IMG/VR virus record: IMGVR_UViG_3300019124_000019
Coordinates: 1 to 37,777 of that record
Direction: 5' to 3' (one strand)
Length of the DNA: 37,777 nt
Origin: a virus
Shown here: positions 3,162 through 35,420 of the stretch, piece after piece
Numbering within the stretch: position 1 is the first letter of the stretch
How the letters are laid out: every line of letters starts with the position of its first letter
Program-made: the position numbers and the translations under genes
The notes under the pieces: model-generated
The model's database searches: none
What the model saw: only the letters and a program-made list of their open reading frames with translations
What the model was told of the DNA's origin: nothing

Positions 3162-3199
3162 GTCCGGCAGTCCTCTCTCAAATACGAGCGTAACCATAC

Positions 3200-3217
3200 T
3201 GACGTACCCATACGTCA
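3200..3217. promoter_or_regulatory. Palindromic operator in the repressor/Cro control region
   Basis: TGACGTA-CCCA-TACGTCA is a perfect palindrome with 7-bp arms and a 4-bp centre. It lies between the two divergent regulators, next to the possible repressor start at 3197. This is the natural binding site for the XRE repressor and/or the Cro-like protein. Confidence 0.75.
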
Positions 3218-3276
3218 ATAGTCGTTCACGGGTTCCCCGATAGTCTAAAAGCACACCCGTAGTGCTATTGACGTAT
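3210..3276. repeat. 12-bp inverted repeat CTATTGACGTAT flanking the divergent promoters
   Basis: CTATTGACGTAT is read on the plus strand at 3265-3276 and on the minus strand at 3221-3210. The right copy carries the -35 box of the Cro-like gene. The left copy overlaps the 18-bp palindrome. The symmetry suggests one regulator binding both sides of the switch. Confidence 0.75.
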
Positions 3277-3296
3277 CACCCGAAGACCCATAAACT
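3268..3296 (+). promoter_or_regulatory. Early promoter for the Cro-like gene
   Basis: TTGACG (3268-3273) and TAAACT (3291-3296) are separated by exactly 17 bp. Transcription should begin near 3303, which is an ATG in the reading frame of the Cro-like gene, so the mRNA would be leaderless. The -35 box lies inside the repeated operator half-site, so binding there would block polymerase. Confidence 0.72.
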
Positions 3297-13511: not shown

Positions 13512-13684
13512 ACCAGCAGCAGCAGGGGCGGCACATCGTACAGCAGGCCCTCCTCACCGGGCGACGGCACAAGCAGAAGCACCGGGTGAGCGAGATCGCC
13601 CTTGGCCTGTCGAATTCATTCCGCGCCGTCGCGCGTGCCGCACGCGCGTTCATTCGCGTGGCGAAGACGTGGAGCCTCCCGTGA
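13508..13684 (+). CDS. Small basic protein, 58 aa
   Basis: The ATG overlaps the upstream stop (ATGA) and the 3' end overlaps rusA. The product is strongly basic (RRHKQKHR) and helical at the end, so nucleic-acid binding is plausible. I do not recognise the family. Confidence 0.62.
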   Translation: MNQQQQGRHIVQQALLTGRRHKQKHRVSEIALGLSNSFRAVARAARAFIRVAKTWSLP

Positions 13685-14046
13685 TTGAACTCGCGCTGCC
13701 GTGGCCGCCGAGCGTGAACACGTACTGGCGTCACGTCCTCGTGCGCGGCCGCGTCCGCGTCCTCATCAGCAAAGCCGGCCGCCAGTACCGCGAGAATGCG
13801 CTGCTGGCCATTCGCGAGCAAGGCGCGCCCCGCATGCCGAGCGGCGCGCGCGTCGCGGTCGTCATCACGGCCGCCCCGCCGGATCGGCGAGCACGCGACC
13901 TCGACAACATTCTGAAGGGCGTCCTCGACAGCCTCACGCATGGCGGCGTGATCGCGGATGACGGCCTGATCGATCATCTCACCGTGACGCGCTCGCCCGC
14001 CCAGGCGGGCGGCGTGGTTCGCGTTCAACTCCAGGAGGCTCCATGA
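13681..14046 (+). CDS. rusA: RusA-family Holliday junction resolvase
   Basis: The 121-aa protein has the typical RusA signature: it starts with LALPWPPSVNTYWR, and later carries PPDRRARDLDNILKGVLDSL followed by GGVIADDG. The aspartates in RDLDN and the ADD pair match the metal-binding active site. RusA cleaves four-way junctions and clears recombination or replication branches before packaging. The GTG start at 13681 overlaps the previous stop, and a TGGAG site lies upstream. Length agrees with the family. Confidence 0.9.
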   Translation: MIELALPWPPSVNTYWRHVLVRGRVRVLISKAGRQYRENALLAIREQGAPRMPSGARVAVVITAAPPDRRARDLDNILKGVLDSLTHGGVIADDGLIDHLTVTRSPAQAGGVVRVQLQEAP

Positions 14047-14624
14047 CAGCTTTCTTCTTCCCCCTCGAGGTGCCCGTGACGGATAAACCCAGACGATCCC
14101 GGTACGTCGCGAAGTCCCGCGGCGTCACGTACCTGAAGCCCGAGCAGGCCGCGCGAGCGTACGCGGAAGCGTGGTACCAGGCGCTGCGCGCGTGGCGCGT
14201 CCAGGAAGTCGTGATTCCCTCGCCCCGCCAGGGAAGCAGCACGTTCGGCGCGAGTGACTGGGGAGACTACAACACCCTCGGGGAGCCGGGGCGGAGTGTC
14301 GCGAGGTACCTCGTAACGCCGTACGCGAGCGGGGAAGGGGAGGCCATGCTCACGGAAGGCGAGGTGGGCGGCATGATTTCCCTGATGGTGCGCAGTGGCG
14401 TGCCGGAAGCGGTCCTGTATGGGCGCATGCTGGAGCGGCTGCGGAAGGGGACGAGCATGCAGTCCCTGGTGCGTGAGGGTGGCGGGTGGGCGTACCCGCG
14501 TGAGCAGGCGGTGCGGTACGCGCTGGCGGTGTTGACGCTCGCGGTGCGGTTGCGTGACGCGCGCGCTGAGGGTTTTCTGAGAGTTCTGCAAAGAAACCTT
14601 GCAGAAACCGCAAGTTTCACCTAA
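14043..14624 (+). CDS. Protein in the late-regulator position, 193 aa
   Basis: This last gene of the early region ends only 10 bp before a promoter-terminator arrangement (14599-14685, partly overlapping its 3' end). The protein is mostly helical with a basic N-terminal part (TDKPRRSRYVAKSRGVTYLK), and a segment around residues 115-165 (MLERLRKGTSMQSLVREGG). No domain is recognised. In lambda-like phages the gene just before the late promoter encodes the Q antiterminator, and this gene has the same placement. The function is inferred from position only. An RNA polymerase-binding or sigma-like factor is an alternative. Confidence 0.55.
   Translation: MTAFFFPLEVPVTDKPRRSRYVAKSRGVTYLKPEQAARAYAEAWYQALRAWRVQEVVIPSPRQGSSTFGASDWGDYNTLGEPGRSVARYLVTPYASGEGEAMLTEGEVGGMISLMVRSGVPEAVLYGRMLERLRKGTSMQSLVREGGGWAYPREQAVRYALAVLTLAVRLRDARAEGFLRVLQRNLAETASFT
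14584..14606. repeat. Inverted repeat TTCTGCAA-TTGCAGAA at the late switch
   Basis: An 8-bp perfect inverted repeat (14584-14591 with 14599-14606) surrounds AGAAACC. AGAAACC itself occurs twice, 11 bp apart (14592 and 14603). It overlaps the -35 region of the promoter-like sequence, so it could be an activator or antiterminator target. Confidence 0.55.
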
Positions 14625-14627
14625 GAT
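14599..14627 (+). promoter_or_regulatory. Candidate late promoter
   Basis: TTGCAG (14599-14604) and TAAGAT (14622-14627) are spaced by 17 bp in a locally AT-rich pocket. Transcription would start near 14634, roughly 20 bp before the strong hairpin at 14655. The -35 match to TTGACA is only partial. Confidence 0.5.
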
Positions 14628-14654
14628 TTCATTAGAGTCGGCTTCAAGTCGAAT

Positions 14655-14685
14655 AAACACCCCCCTCACAAAAGGGGGGTGTTTT
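14655..14685 (+). terminator. Strong terminator between the early and late regions
   Basis: A perfect 12-bp stem (AAACACCCCCCT, 14655-14666, with 14673-14684) has a 6-nt loop and a TTTT run. It can stop rightward transcription. The A-run on the other side gives some activity leftward too. Confidence 0.9.
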
Positions 14686-15419: not shown

Positions 15420-16157
15420 ATGCCCGACGAACCCGCCCAACTCCCTGAACTGAAACCGAAGCACGCGCGGTTCGTCGACGCGTACTTCGAACACCACCTG
15501 AACGCCGCCGAAGCGTCCCGCGCGTGCGGGTACCGCGACCGCGCCGAAGGCAGCCGCCTTCTCGCCCGCGAGGACGTCGCCGCGCACGTGCAGGCACGCC
15601 TCGACGCGGCCGGCATGACCGCCGCTGAAGTGCTCGCGCGTCTCACGCGCCTCAGCCGCGGGGACATGAGTGACTTCCTCAGCGTGCACGAACGCGACGA
15701 GCCCGTGTACGAGAATCGACCCCTCGTGGAGAAACTCACGGACATCCGGCGCCGCATCGACGCGCTGCACCAGTTCCGCGCTCAACGCGACACGCACCTC
15801 AGCCAGGATCAGCGCGCCACCCTCAGCGATAAACTCGCGCGCCTCCTCGACCAGGAGCTCGACACGGAACTCGAACTCGCCCTGAATCCGGACGCGACGT
15901 ACCAGGCGAAGGTCGGCACGCGACCCGTGCGGGAACTCATCGCGGATCCCGTGAAAGCCGCGGAACTCCAGCAGCTCGGGCTCGTCAAGAAGTTCAAGTA
16001 CGAGGACGGCCGCCTCGAGGTGGAGCTGCACGACGTCGTCCGCACGCTGGAACTCATGGGCAAGCGACACAAGCTCTTCACCGACAAGATCGACGTGACG
16101 GGTGACGTGAGCGCCAGCATCAAGTTCGTCGTTGGCGTCGACGAGGACGCCCTGTGA
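15420..16157 (+). CDS. terS: Terminase small subunit
   Basis: The N-terminal region (LKPKHARFVDAYFEHHLNAA, then SRACGYRDRAEGSRLLAREDV) matches the terminase small-subunit helix-turn-helix (PF03592-type), which recognises the packaging site. A central coiled-coil oligomerisation region follows. At 245 aa it is longer than most, with an extra C-terminal part (about 150-245). GGAGGTG precedes the ATG. The gene overlaps the large subunit by 4 bp, as expected for the packaging motor. Confidence 0.9.
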   Translation: MPDEPAQLPELKPKHARFVDAYFEHHLNAAEASRACGYRDRAEGSRLLAREDVAAHVQARLDAAGMTAAEVLARLTRLSRGDMSDFLSVHERDEPVYENRPLVEKLTDIRRRIDALHQFRAQRDTHLSQDQRATLSDKLARLLDQELDTELELALNPDATYQAKVGTRPVRELIADPVKAAELQQLGLVKKFKYEDGRLEVELHDVVRTLELMGKRHKLFTDKIDVTGDVSASIKFVVGVDEDAL

Positions 16158-17470
16158 CGCTCACCCTCCCGCCCGGCGCGCACGTGTACGCTCCGCGCGG
16201 CAGCGCGCGGGACATCTTCTACGCGCGGGACGACGAAGTCATGCTCGACGGCCCCGCCGGCACGGGCAAGAGTCGCGCGAGCCTGGAGAAGCTCGACGCG
16301 CTCGCCCGCAAGTACGCCGGTTGCCGCCTCGCGATCGTGCGGAAGTTCCGCGCGGCCGTCACGGAAACGGCCCTCGTGACGTTCGAGCAGCACGTGCGGC
16401 CCGCGTGCGACACCACGAACCAGCAGCGCCGCGTCCGGCAATCCTACGAGTACCCGAACGGCAGTGAAATCGTCGTCGCGGGCATCGACAACCCCGTGAA
16501 GCTCATGTCGGCCGAGTTCGACGCGATCTACGTGCAGGAAGCAACGGAACTCACCCTGAATGACTGGGAGTTCCTCAGCACCCGCCTCCGCAACGGCGTC
16601 ATTCCGTACCAGCAGCTGTTCGGGGACTGCAACCCCGGCCCGCCCACGCACTGGCTGAACAAACGCATGGAGGCAGGCCTCACGCGCCGCATCCTGTGCC
16701 GGCACGAGGACAACCCGCGCCTCTGGGACGCCCGCGCCGGGGACTGGACGGAGTTCGGGAGGACGTACATCGCCCGCCTCGACAAACTCACCGGGCCCCG
16801 CAAGCTGCGCCTCCGGCACGGCAAGTGGGCCGCCAGCGAGGGTATGGTGTACGACGCGTTCGACGCGAACGTGCACGTCATCGACTCCTTCCCGATTCCC
16901 AAGGAGTGGCGCCGCGTGCGCGTCATCGACTTCGGCTTCACGAACGCGTTCGTGTGCCAGTGGTGGGCGATCGACCCGGACGGCCGCATGTACCGCTACC
17001 GCGAGATCTACCGAACGCGCCGCACCGTCCGCGAGCACGCCCAGCAGATCCGCCAGCTGGACGCGAGCGAGGACATCGAAGCGACCATCACGGATCACGA
17101 CGCCGAGGACCGCGCGACCCTCGAGCACGAACTCGACTGCTCCACCACCGCGGCGGACAAGGCCGTCACGACCGGCATTCAAGCCGTGCAGGACCGCCTC
17201 GCCATTCAGGAGGACGGCCGCGCCCGCCTGTACCTCCTGCGCGGCGCGCTCGTCGAGCGTGACCCGCTCCTCATCGACGGCGAGACGGGCCTCGCGAGCG
17301 TTCCGACCTGCACGGAAGAGGAAATCGACGGGTACGTGTGGGCGAAAGGGCAGGGCGGCGAAACACTCAAGGAACACCCCGTGAAAGAGAACGACCACGG
17401 GCTCGACACGCTCCGGTACGCCGTCCGGTACGTGGACCGCGATCAGGGCGGCGGAATCATCACCCTATGA
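16154..17470 (+). CDS. terL: Terminase large subunit
   Basis: The 438-aa protein is the DNA packaging ATPase and nuclease. Walker A GPAGTGKS lies near residue 33, and Walker B with its catalytic acidic residues is at FDAIYVQEATE near 122. The RNase H-like nuclease half has RVIDFGFTNAF near 256, DHDAEDRATLE near 315 and a final ENDHGLDTLRYAV. The GTG start overlaps TerS (GTGA). It loads DNA through the portal encoded next. Length and motif order fit TerL. Confidence 0.95.
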   Translation: MTLTLPPGAHVYAPRGSARDIFYARDDEVMLDGPAGTGKSRASLEKLDALARKYAGCRLAIVRKFRAAVTETALVTFEQHVRPACDTTNQQRRVRQSYEYPNGSEIVVAGIDNPVKLMSAEFDAIYVQEATELTLNDWEFLSTRLRNGVIPYQQLFGDCNPGPPTHWLNKRMEAGLTRRILCRHEDNPRLWDARAGDWTEFGRTYIARLDKLTGPRKLRLRHGKWAASEGMVYDAFDANVHVIDSFPIPKEWRRVRVIDFGFTNAFVCQWWAIDPDGRMYRYREIYRTRRTVREHAQQIRQLDASEDIEATITDHDAEDRATLEHELDCSTTAADKAVTTGIQAVQDRLAIQEDGRARLYLLRGALVERDPLLIDGETGLASVPTCTEEEIDGYVWAKGQGGETLKEHPVKENDHGLDTLRYAVRYVDRDQGGGIITL

Positions 17471-28062: not shown

Positions 28063-28086
28063 GACCCCACCCGAGCGGGTGGGGTC
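28063..28086 (+). terminator. Hairpin after the tape measure gene
   Basis: GACCCCACCC (28063-28072) and GGGTGGGGTC (28077-28086) make a perfect 10-bp stem with loop GAGC. The downstream sequence (GTTCGTTT) is moderately T-rich. It can slow or end transcription before the baseplate genes. Confidence 0.75.
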
Positions 28087-34277: not shown

Positions 34278-35420
34278 ATGCCCCCCGCGATACCCGCATT
34301 GACTGGCCTGCGATTCCTCGCGGCGCTCGCTGTCGTGATCGTTCACTTCGGCGCGCCCTTCTTCGTCGGTCTGGGATTGCCAGGGTACGCTCCGCGACTC
34401 GCGAGCGCCGGGTATCTCGGCGTGAATTTCTTCTTCCTCCTGAGCGGCTTCATCCTCGCGTACAACTACCTGTCGGGCGGAACGATGCGAGGGACACATC
34501 GCGCCTTCTGGGTGGCGCGTGCCGCGCGAGTCCTGCCGGTGTACTGGCTCGCGTGGCTGCTGGCATTGCCGTTGTACCTCGCGAATGCCAGTGAGGGCGC
34601 CTACCGGGCGATGCCACATCAGGATTCAGCCGTGACAGTTGCTCTGTCGGGCGTACTGGTGCAATCGTGGTGGCCGCACGCGGCGAACTTCCTCAACGCT
34701 CCCGGGTGGAGCTTGAGCACGGAGGTGTTGTTCTACGCGGCGTTCCCACTGATTGGCGTCTGGCTCACGCGCCAATCATCCCTTGTGCTCCTCGCGACGG
34801 TCGGTGGCGCGTGGGTGCTCGCGCTGTTGCCCGCCGTGATGTACCTCGCGCTGCGCCCTGACGCGGGTGTTGACCCGCAATGGGGCGCGTTCGGGACATG
34901 GTTACAGGTCGTGAAGTTCAATCCGGTGGTGCGCCTGCCCGAGTTCGTAATGGGTATCGCGCTCGGCTGCCTGTTCCTGCGCAGACGAACTTGGCCCCTC
35001 CCGCAAGTCCGCCCGGGGATGCTCGCCCTTCTTGCTGTTGCTGGTGTCGTGCTGCTCGTCACGCGCTTCCCGGCACCATTCTTGATGCTCCACTCCGGCC
35101 TGCTGGACCCACTGTTCGCGATGCTGATCGTAAGCGTTGCTTACGATCAGGGTGTCCTGACGAGGGTACTCGGTTCGCCCGTGTTCGTGCTCCTCGGTGA
35201 GGCTAGCTACGCCCTCTACCTCCTGCACGTGCCCGCATGGGATGCCCTCGCGCGCTTCGCAGGCGTGCCGAACCTGCTCCCATGGGGTTTCCCAGCGTTT
35301 GTAGCGCTCGTGACAGCCATAAGTGTCCTCGTGTTCCGCGTGTTCGAGGAGCCGATGCGGCATCGCATTCGCCGTGTGTTGGCCCCTCGTCGCGCAAGCC
35401 TCACAGCCGCAACCAACTGA
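34278..35420 (+). CDS. Acyltransferase-3 family membrane protein (OafA-like moron)
   Basis: The 380-aa protein has about ten transmembrane helices and family motifs: GLRFLAALAVVIVHFG at the N-terminus, FFLLSGFILAYNY, and GWSLSTEVLFYAAFPL. Members transfer acetyl or other acyl groups to cell-surface carbohydrates. It lies between the tail fibre and lysis genes, with its own promoter-like element and terminator, so it is probably a lysogenic-conversion gene that changes the surface polysaccharide. It may alter phage adsorption. The base composition is a little less extreme than in neighbouring genes, consistent with transfer. Substrate unknown. Confidence 0.9.
   Translation: MPPAIPALTGLRFLAALAVVIVHFGAPFFVGLGLPGYAPRLASAGYLGVNFFFLLSGFILAYNYLSGGTMRGTHRAFWVARAARVLPVYWLAWLLALPLYLANASEGAYRAMPHQDSAVTVALSGVLVQSWWPHAANFLNAPGWSLSTEVLFYAAFPLIGVWLTRQSSLVLLATVGGAWVLALLPAVMYLALRPDAGVDPQWGAFGTWLQVVKFNPVVRLPEFVMGIALGCLFLRRRTWPLPQVRPGMLALLAVAGVVLLVTRFPAPFLMLHSGLLDPLFAMLIVSVAYDQGVLTRVLGSPVFVLLGEASYALYLLHVPAWDALARFAGVPNLLPWGFPAFVALVTAISVLVFRVFEEPMRHRIRRVLAPRRASLTAATN

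Follow-up and report, generated by a model that had tools for sequence, protein, structure and literature searches.

The window analysed here, i.e., the whole stretch of DNA under study, is a virus record of 37.8 kb with a GC content of 67%. At its left lie the gene of a serine-type integrase, genes of repressor-type regulators and a Cro-like gene, followed by the early genes; rightward of these come a RusA-type resolvase gene, a gene for a protein of 193 aa, and the terminase, portal, head, tail, tape-measure and endolysin genes, in this order. The 193-aa gene occupies the position of Q in lambdoid phages, after the early genes and the Holliday junction resolvase and before the late operon. 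The phage is temperate, and the plasmid-borne relatives of this gene, together with the form of its promoter, suggest a Deinococcus-type host. Two other regions of the window deserve mention. The AT-rich, divergent region 3195-3285, between the repressor-type and Cro-like genes, carries TGACGTA-CCCA-TACGTCA plus a further TTGACGTATCACC, and these are likely lysogeny operators. An O-acetyltransferase of the O-antigen acetylase type is encoded between the tail and lysis genes (34278-35420; phrog_3333, 4e-47); classical O-antigen is unexpected in Deinococcus, and the enzyme is thus odd for the presumed host.

The features of the locus are the following:

13669-14046, plus strand: RusA-type Holliday junction resolvase, directly 5' of the 193-aa gene (Pfam RusA, 4.6e-14; phrog_34, 2.5e-40)
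14043-14624, plus strand: Q-like gene, 193 aa, proposed late antiterminator; relatives in L002, L003, L005, L087, L088, L090, L091 and L095, and no Pfam, PHROG, NCBIfam or PDB match
14584-14606, plus strand: longer inverted repeat TTCTGCAA-N7-TTGCAGAA, containing the first AGAAACC copy (14592-14598); unconserved in relatives
14599-14604, plus strand: TTGCAG, -35 element of the proposed late promoter, within the 3' end of the 193-aa gene; TTGnnn at N16/17 from the -10 in 8/8 intact members
14599-14614, plus strand: proposed protein-binding element TTGC-AGAAACC-GCAAG, an inverted repeat over the -35 and spacer; in the same register, TTGC-N7-GCAA in L091 and TTGC-N7-GCTA (half-kept) in L002
14622-14627, plus strand: -10 element TAAGAT (TANNNT); TAnnnT in 9/9 members
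14633-14638, plus strand: TAGAGT, a second -10-like element (-1 to +5) and proposed site of a sigma-dependent pause; TA(A/G)nnn exactly 11 nt from the -10 in 9/9 members, the AlpA pause element being in the same register
14655-14684, plus strand: leader terminator (tR'-like), intrinsic-type, with a 12-bp GC-rich stem and a short T run; a terminator-like hairpin similarly placed in 8/8 intact members
15420-16157, plus strand: terminase small subunit, early in the proposed late operon (Pfam Terminase_2, 2.7e-14)
16154-17470, plus strand: terminase large subunit, proposed late operon (phrog_2, 1.1e-30)

A promoter-like module at the end of the gene

The promoter-like sequence TTGCAG-N17-TAAGAT spans 14599-14627, and the stop codon (TAA) of the 193-aa gene overlaps its -10 element. 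By the usual rule (12 bases past the first base of the -10), the predicted +1 is 14634, which places TAGAGT within the first transcribed bases; the module as a whole runs TTGCAG-N17-TAAGAT-TTCAT-TAGAGT, the hairpin following at 14655. The original prediction had described a gene of unknown family ending at this promoter-like sequence, overlapped by an inverted repeat and by an AGAAACC repeat with 11-bp spacing, and all of these elements are in place; TAGAGT, the most telling part of the module, had been overlooked. The match to the E. coli promoter consensus is weak (7/12) and is missed by a strict scan. The Deinococcus -10 is TANNNT, which is experimentally supported and to which a -35 placed 17 bp upstream adds strength, and promoters of this genus can also work with TANNNT alone (PMC12340547). 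A search for sigma70-type promoters from 14.6 to 34.5 kb of the window found none. Of all 80-bp intervals of the window, 14581-14660 has the lowest GC content (41% vs 67%), and the full pattern of promoter and second -10-like element occurs once in the 37.8 kb, both strands considered (shuffled 110-nt regions yield it at about 0.0005 each).

The strong terminator that had been predicted about 20 bp past the start was found at 14655-14684: its stem (-21.2 kcal/mol) begins at +22 with +1 at 14634, its T run is short, and the 71-nt stretch containing it folds at z = -4.2 relative to shuffles. The leader has no match in Rfam. In 8/8 intact leaders there is a G near +14/+15, a feature of consensus pauses; as it was noticed post hoc, it was excluded from the evidence. 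Further downstream, a strong plus-strand hairpin of 10 bp (GACCCCACCC-GAGC-GGGTGGGGTC, 28063-28086) lies 3' of the tape-measure gene, within the late operon, and is possibly a further terminator for a modified polymerase to pass.

Relatives of the 193-aa protein

A homologue search with the window protein alone, among viral contigs and phage records, retrieved no relatives. Those in L002, L005 and L003 were found through terminase synteny, i.e., via contigs with a terminase 70-78% identical; profile and plasmid searches added L087 (D. gobiensis plasmid P2, WP_014686837) and L088 (Deinococcus sp. QL22), and later relatives came from metagenome contigs (L090 and L091) and from a further prophage (L095). 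Scans of species genomes with two strict peptide patterns gave no relatives, probably owing to that strictness. The eight relatives, located in Deinococcus plasmid prophages and phage contigs, make with the window a small set of nine members, in which the spread of the family in Deinococcus genomes is undercounted; pairwise identity ranges from 23 to 64%. In L088 (5884-6460) a frameshift interrupts the gene and no terminator is left, with the promoter block still recognisable. This is a decaying prophage and was counted apart, so that the intact members are eight with the window and seven without it.

The surroundings of the gene vary among members. The resolvase gene situated 5' of it is RusA-like in the window, L002 and L095, and VRR-NUC in L087. 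Downstream, L087 has genes of a different type (DUF935 family, phage protease), with head genes quite different from those of the window, and L095 also seems to have another large terminase. Thus, the module was not merely inherited together with one packaging gene set. A small basic protein starting with MSKKAQKRAARRA or similar is found among the first genes past the terminator in four members (L003:6776, L005:6737, L095:6011 and L091:1291; approximate starts).

Conservation of the module and of its spacer

Each of the eight intact members, window included, carries TTGnnn-N16/17-TAnnnT-N5-TA(A/G)nnn and then a terminator-like hairpin, with its start in the range of about +15 to +50, and the module overlaps or closely follows the end of the gene in all of them. 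A(+1) is kept in 9/9 members and T(+5) in 8/8 intact ones. The pattern occurs once per member contig (both strands), solely at the end of the Q-like gene; elsewhere, five matches were found in ~2 Mb of both-strand sequence, none of them in loci with a family member. The pattern had been written down before L090, L091 and L095 were fetched, and all three fit it, whereas shuffling these regions leaves a match rate of ≤0.0005. Across members, the -10-to-pause block shows an identity of 0.64, as compared with 0.26 for the coding DNA upstream and 0.31 for the leader, both near background. Since it is conserved amid diverged coding DNA and leader, the -10-to-pause block is under selection. The lambda order of Q, pR' and tR' that had been proposed for this locus therefore recurs after every intact member with fixed geometry, and it is also the order in P22 and HK97.

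Several repeats overlap the promoter in the window: the AGAAACC direct repeat (14592 and 14603, spaced 11 bp) and the inverted repeats TTCTGCAA/TTGCAGAA (14584/14599) and CTTGC-N7-GCAAG (14598-14614). The AGAAACC repeat, which the original prediction had stressed, is present, but neither it nor the longer TTCTGCAA repeat is conserved in any relative. AGAAACC was also considered as a double site of the 21Q kind and was dropped as the main element, the repeat being absent from all relatives. The TTGC-N7-GCAAG element is the sole site of its kind within the window. The spacer motifs follow subfamilies: GCAAG/GCTAG in the window, L091 and L002; GAAYAAA in L005, L087 and L090; and GATTGAC/GTTGAC in L003, L095 and L088. 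Spacer identity tracks protein identity (Mantel p 0.03, a weak test with nine sequences), whereas identity of the -10-to-pause block does not; a binding element in the -35/-10 spacer would be expected to behave in this way if the protein recognising it were diverging.

The -35 and upstream spacer of L090 (3587-3605), TTGACTTTTGGAATAAAGT, are identical in register to the P22/HK97 late promoter, TTGACTTTTTGAATAAAGT, at 18/19 bases, and this site is the only one with ≤4 mismatches to TTGACTTTTTGAATAAAGT in ~2 Mb, both strands. The likeness could reflect convergence, shared binding specificity or exchange.

Comparison with known Q-type systems

By sequence, the 193-aa protein belongs to none of the Q families tested. 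No match to PF03589 was obtained for any of seven members at E up to 5, whereas the Q proteins of lambda, P22 and HK97 match it at 1e-56 or better; by profile, no relation to lambda Q or P22 gp23 emerged (hhalign probability 0.1). The antitermination families of Pfam, PHROG and NCBIfam gave no match at E up to 5 (82Q was compared only through these family libraries), and a sequence search of the PDB, which includes 21Q and AlpA, gave no match of note. No DNA-binding domain was recognised by sequence in the protein. An AlphaFold model of moderate confidence (pLDDT 74), built on an alignment of only seven sequences, begins with a disordered segment at the N-terminus, which leads into a helix; next come two longer strands flanking a disordered loop. 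Four helices complete the model, and a tight turn connects the final pair. Fold searches with two AlphaFold models gave Foldseek E values of 0.77 or worse in the PDB, a best value of 0.028 with TM 0.18 in the viral library, and a VIA Z of 3.1 at most; 21Q and AlpA were absent from these matches, the model being only moderately confident. This null result is no evidence of a new fold: both an unrelated fold and a diverged Q with too poor a model would be compatible with it. The earlier suggestion of a possibly new antiterminator type fits the lack of sequence relation to lambda Q, P22 gp23 and the library families, as far as function can be read from sequence.

The Q-type systems described in the literature consulted are three phage Q families and AlpA, all of them, to our knowledge, from Proteobacteria. 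Their late promoters need a -10-like sequence in the first transcribed bases, which causes a sigma-dependent pause, together with a binding element (PMC9371919). The AlpA pause element is located at -1 to +5, antitermination suffers when its A(+1) or T(+5) is substituted, and the binding element lies between the -35 and -10; the authors of the AlpA structure anticipated the discovery of more Q-like antiterminators.

The window has in common with lambda-type Q systems (lambda, P22 gp23, HK97 gp69; PF03589; pR'/qut/tR') the order of Q, late promoter and terminator, the second -10-like element in the first transcribed bases and the late operon downstream; as in the window, HK97 also has a RusA gene near Q. 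The terminator is found ~30 nt past the start in P22 and HK97 (+30 to +59 in P22, according to the record annotation), and the short leader of the window is therefore normal for the class. On the other hand, the lambda-type pause element (AACGAT in lambda) lies at +1 to +6 and that of the window family at -1 to +5, the late operon of the window has small genes and terminase at its start, not lysis genes, and the presumed host phylum is Deinococcota. The likeness to AlpA of Pseudomonas aeruginosa includes the pause element at -1 to +5, a candidate element between the -35 and -10 and an intrinsic terminator soon after the promoter. However, AlpA controls a chromosomal lysis cassette, and it is all-helical with a C-terminal helix-turn-helix, whereas the model of the window protein has strands and no matched fold. 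The same logic applies to 21Q of phage 21, which binds direct repeats in its promoter; the direct repeat of the window is at another position and is not conserved in relatives.

Proposed late switch and alternative explanations

We consider it quite probable that the 193-aa protein is a processive antiterminator of the Q type, acting with a late promoter and a leader terminator on the terminase-to-lysis operon. This reading is supported by the recurrence of the module with fixed geometry, by a pause-type element at a known register and by the late region itself, in which the promoter search found nothing but a further hairpin occurs (28063); promoter activity, pausing, DNA binding and antitermination are all read from sequence elements, their conservation and gene order. 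Counted against it are the -10 hexamers, poor by E. coli standards, the short T run, the lack of a recognised DNA-binding domain and a structural model resembling no known Q. RNA polymerase would start constitutively at ~14634 and make a leader RNA of ~50 nt, transcription normally ending at the hairpin 14655-14684. Soon after the start, sigma would rebind TAGAGT at -1 to +5 and the polymerase would pause. The Q-like protein, accumulating from the early operon, would bind the DNA element in the -35 and spacer (here TTGC-N7-GCAAG) and load onto the paused polymerase, rendering it resistant to terminators, and the terminase, head, tail and lysis genes (15.4-37 kb) would then be transcribed.

The protein might instead be an ordinary activator or repressor acting at initiation, with the hairpin as a leaky terminator or attenuator merely ending transcription of the early operon. 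Subfamily-specific spacer motifs would fit any DNA-binding regulator, terminators past an early operon are common, and TAGAGT could be a second, tandem start site instead of a pause element, given that TANNNT alone can suffice in Deinococcus. We nevertheless regard this as unlikely, since a start 15-50 nt before a terminator in 8/8 members would be pointless without control of readthrough, and the second element is fixed at exactly 11 nt, in the register of known pause elements.

Still less credible is a small phage RNA gene of ~50 nt with a regulatory role of its own, to which the upstream gene would be unrelated. A short transcript is indeed predicted between promoter and terminator, and it could be likened to the short leader RNA that arises from the late promoter of lambda; however, neither the low conservation of the leader nor its lack of an Rfam match suits an RNA gene, and the promoter block always follows the Q-like protein family. 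That the promoter-like and repeat sequences are due to chance, the terminator at the end of the early operon being the only real element, seems the most improbable of these explanations: the AGAAACC and longer inverted repeats are unconserved and E. coli-type promoter scans find nothing, but chance would hardly produce a fixed-spacing recurrence in all intact relatives, three of them found after the pattern was formulated, or a local conservation standing out from a diverged background.

Returning to the Q-type antiterminator, we would propose, more tentatively and at somewhat less than even chances, that it represents a further lineage with an origin and fold independent of lambda Q, 21Q, 82Q and AlpA, which would have arisen in Deinococcota phages and arrived by convergence at a sigma-dependent pause and a promoter-embedded loading site.

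Implications

If the proposal is true, a protein unrelated to the known ones has evolved a lambda-like terminator bypass in a distant bacterial phylum, and the occurrence of this promoter architecture in a Deinococcota family would imply that distant phyla use sigma-dependent pausing as a loading platform. The nine natural variants of promoter plus protein would constitute a test set for what fixes loading specificity. Furthermore, the family would make the late switch of Deinococcus phages more accessible and open the way to comparisons with the RNA polymerase of Thermus, which is well studied.
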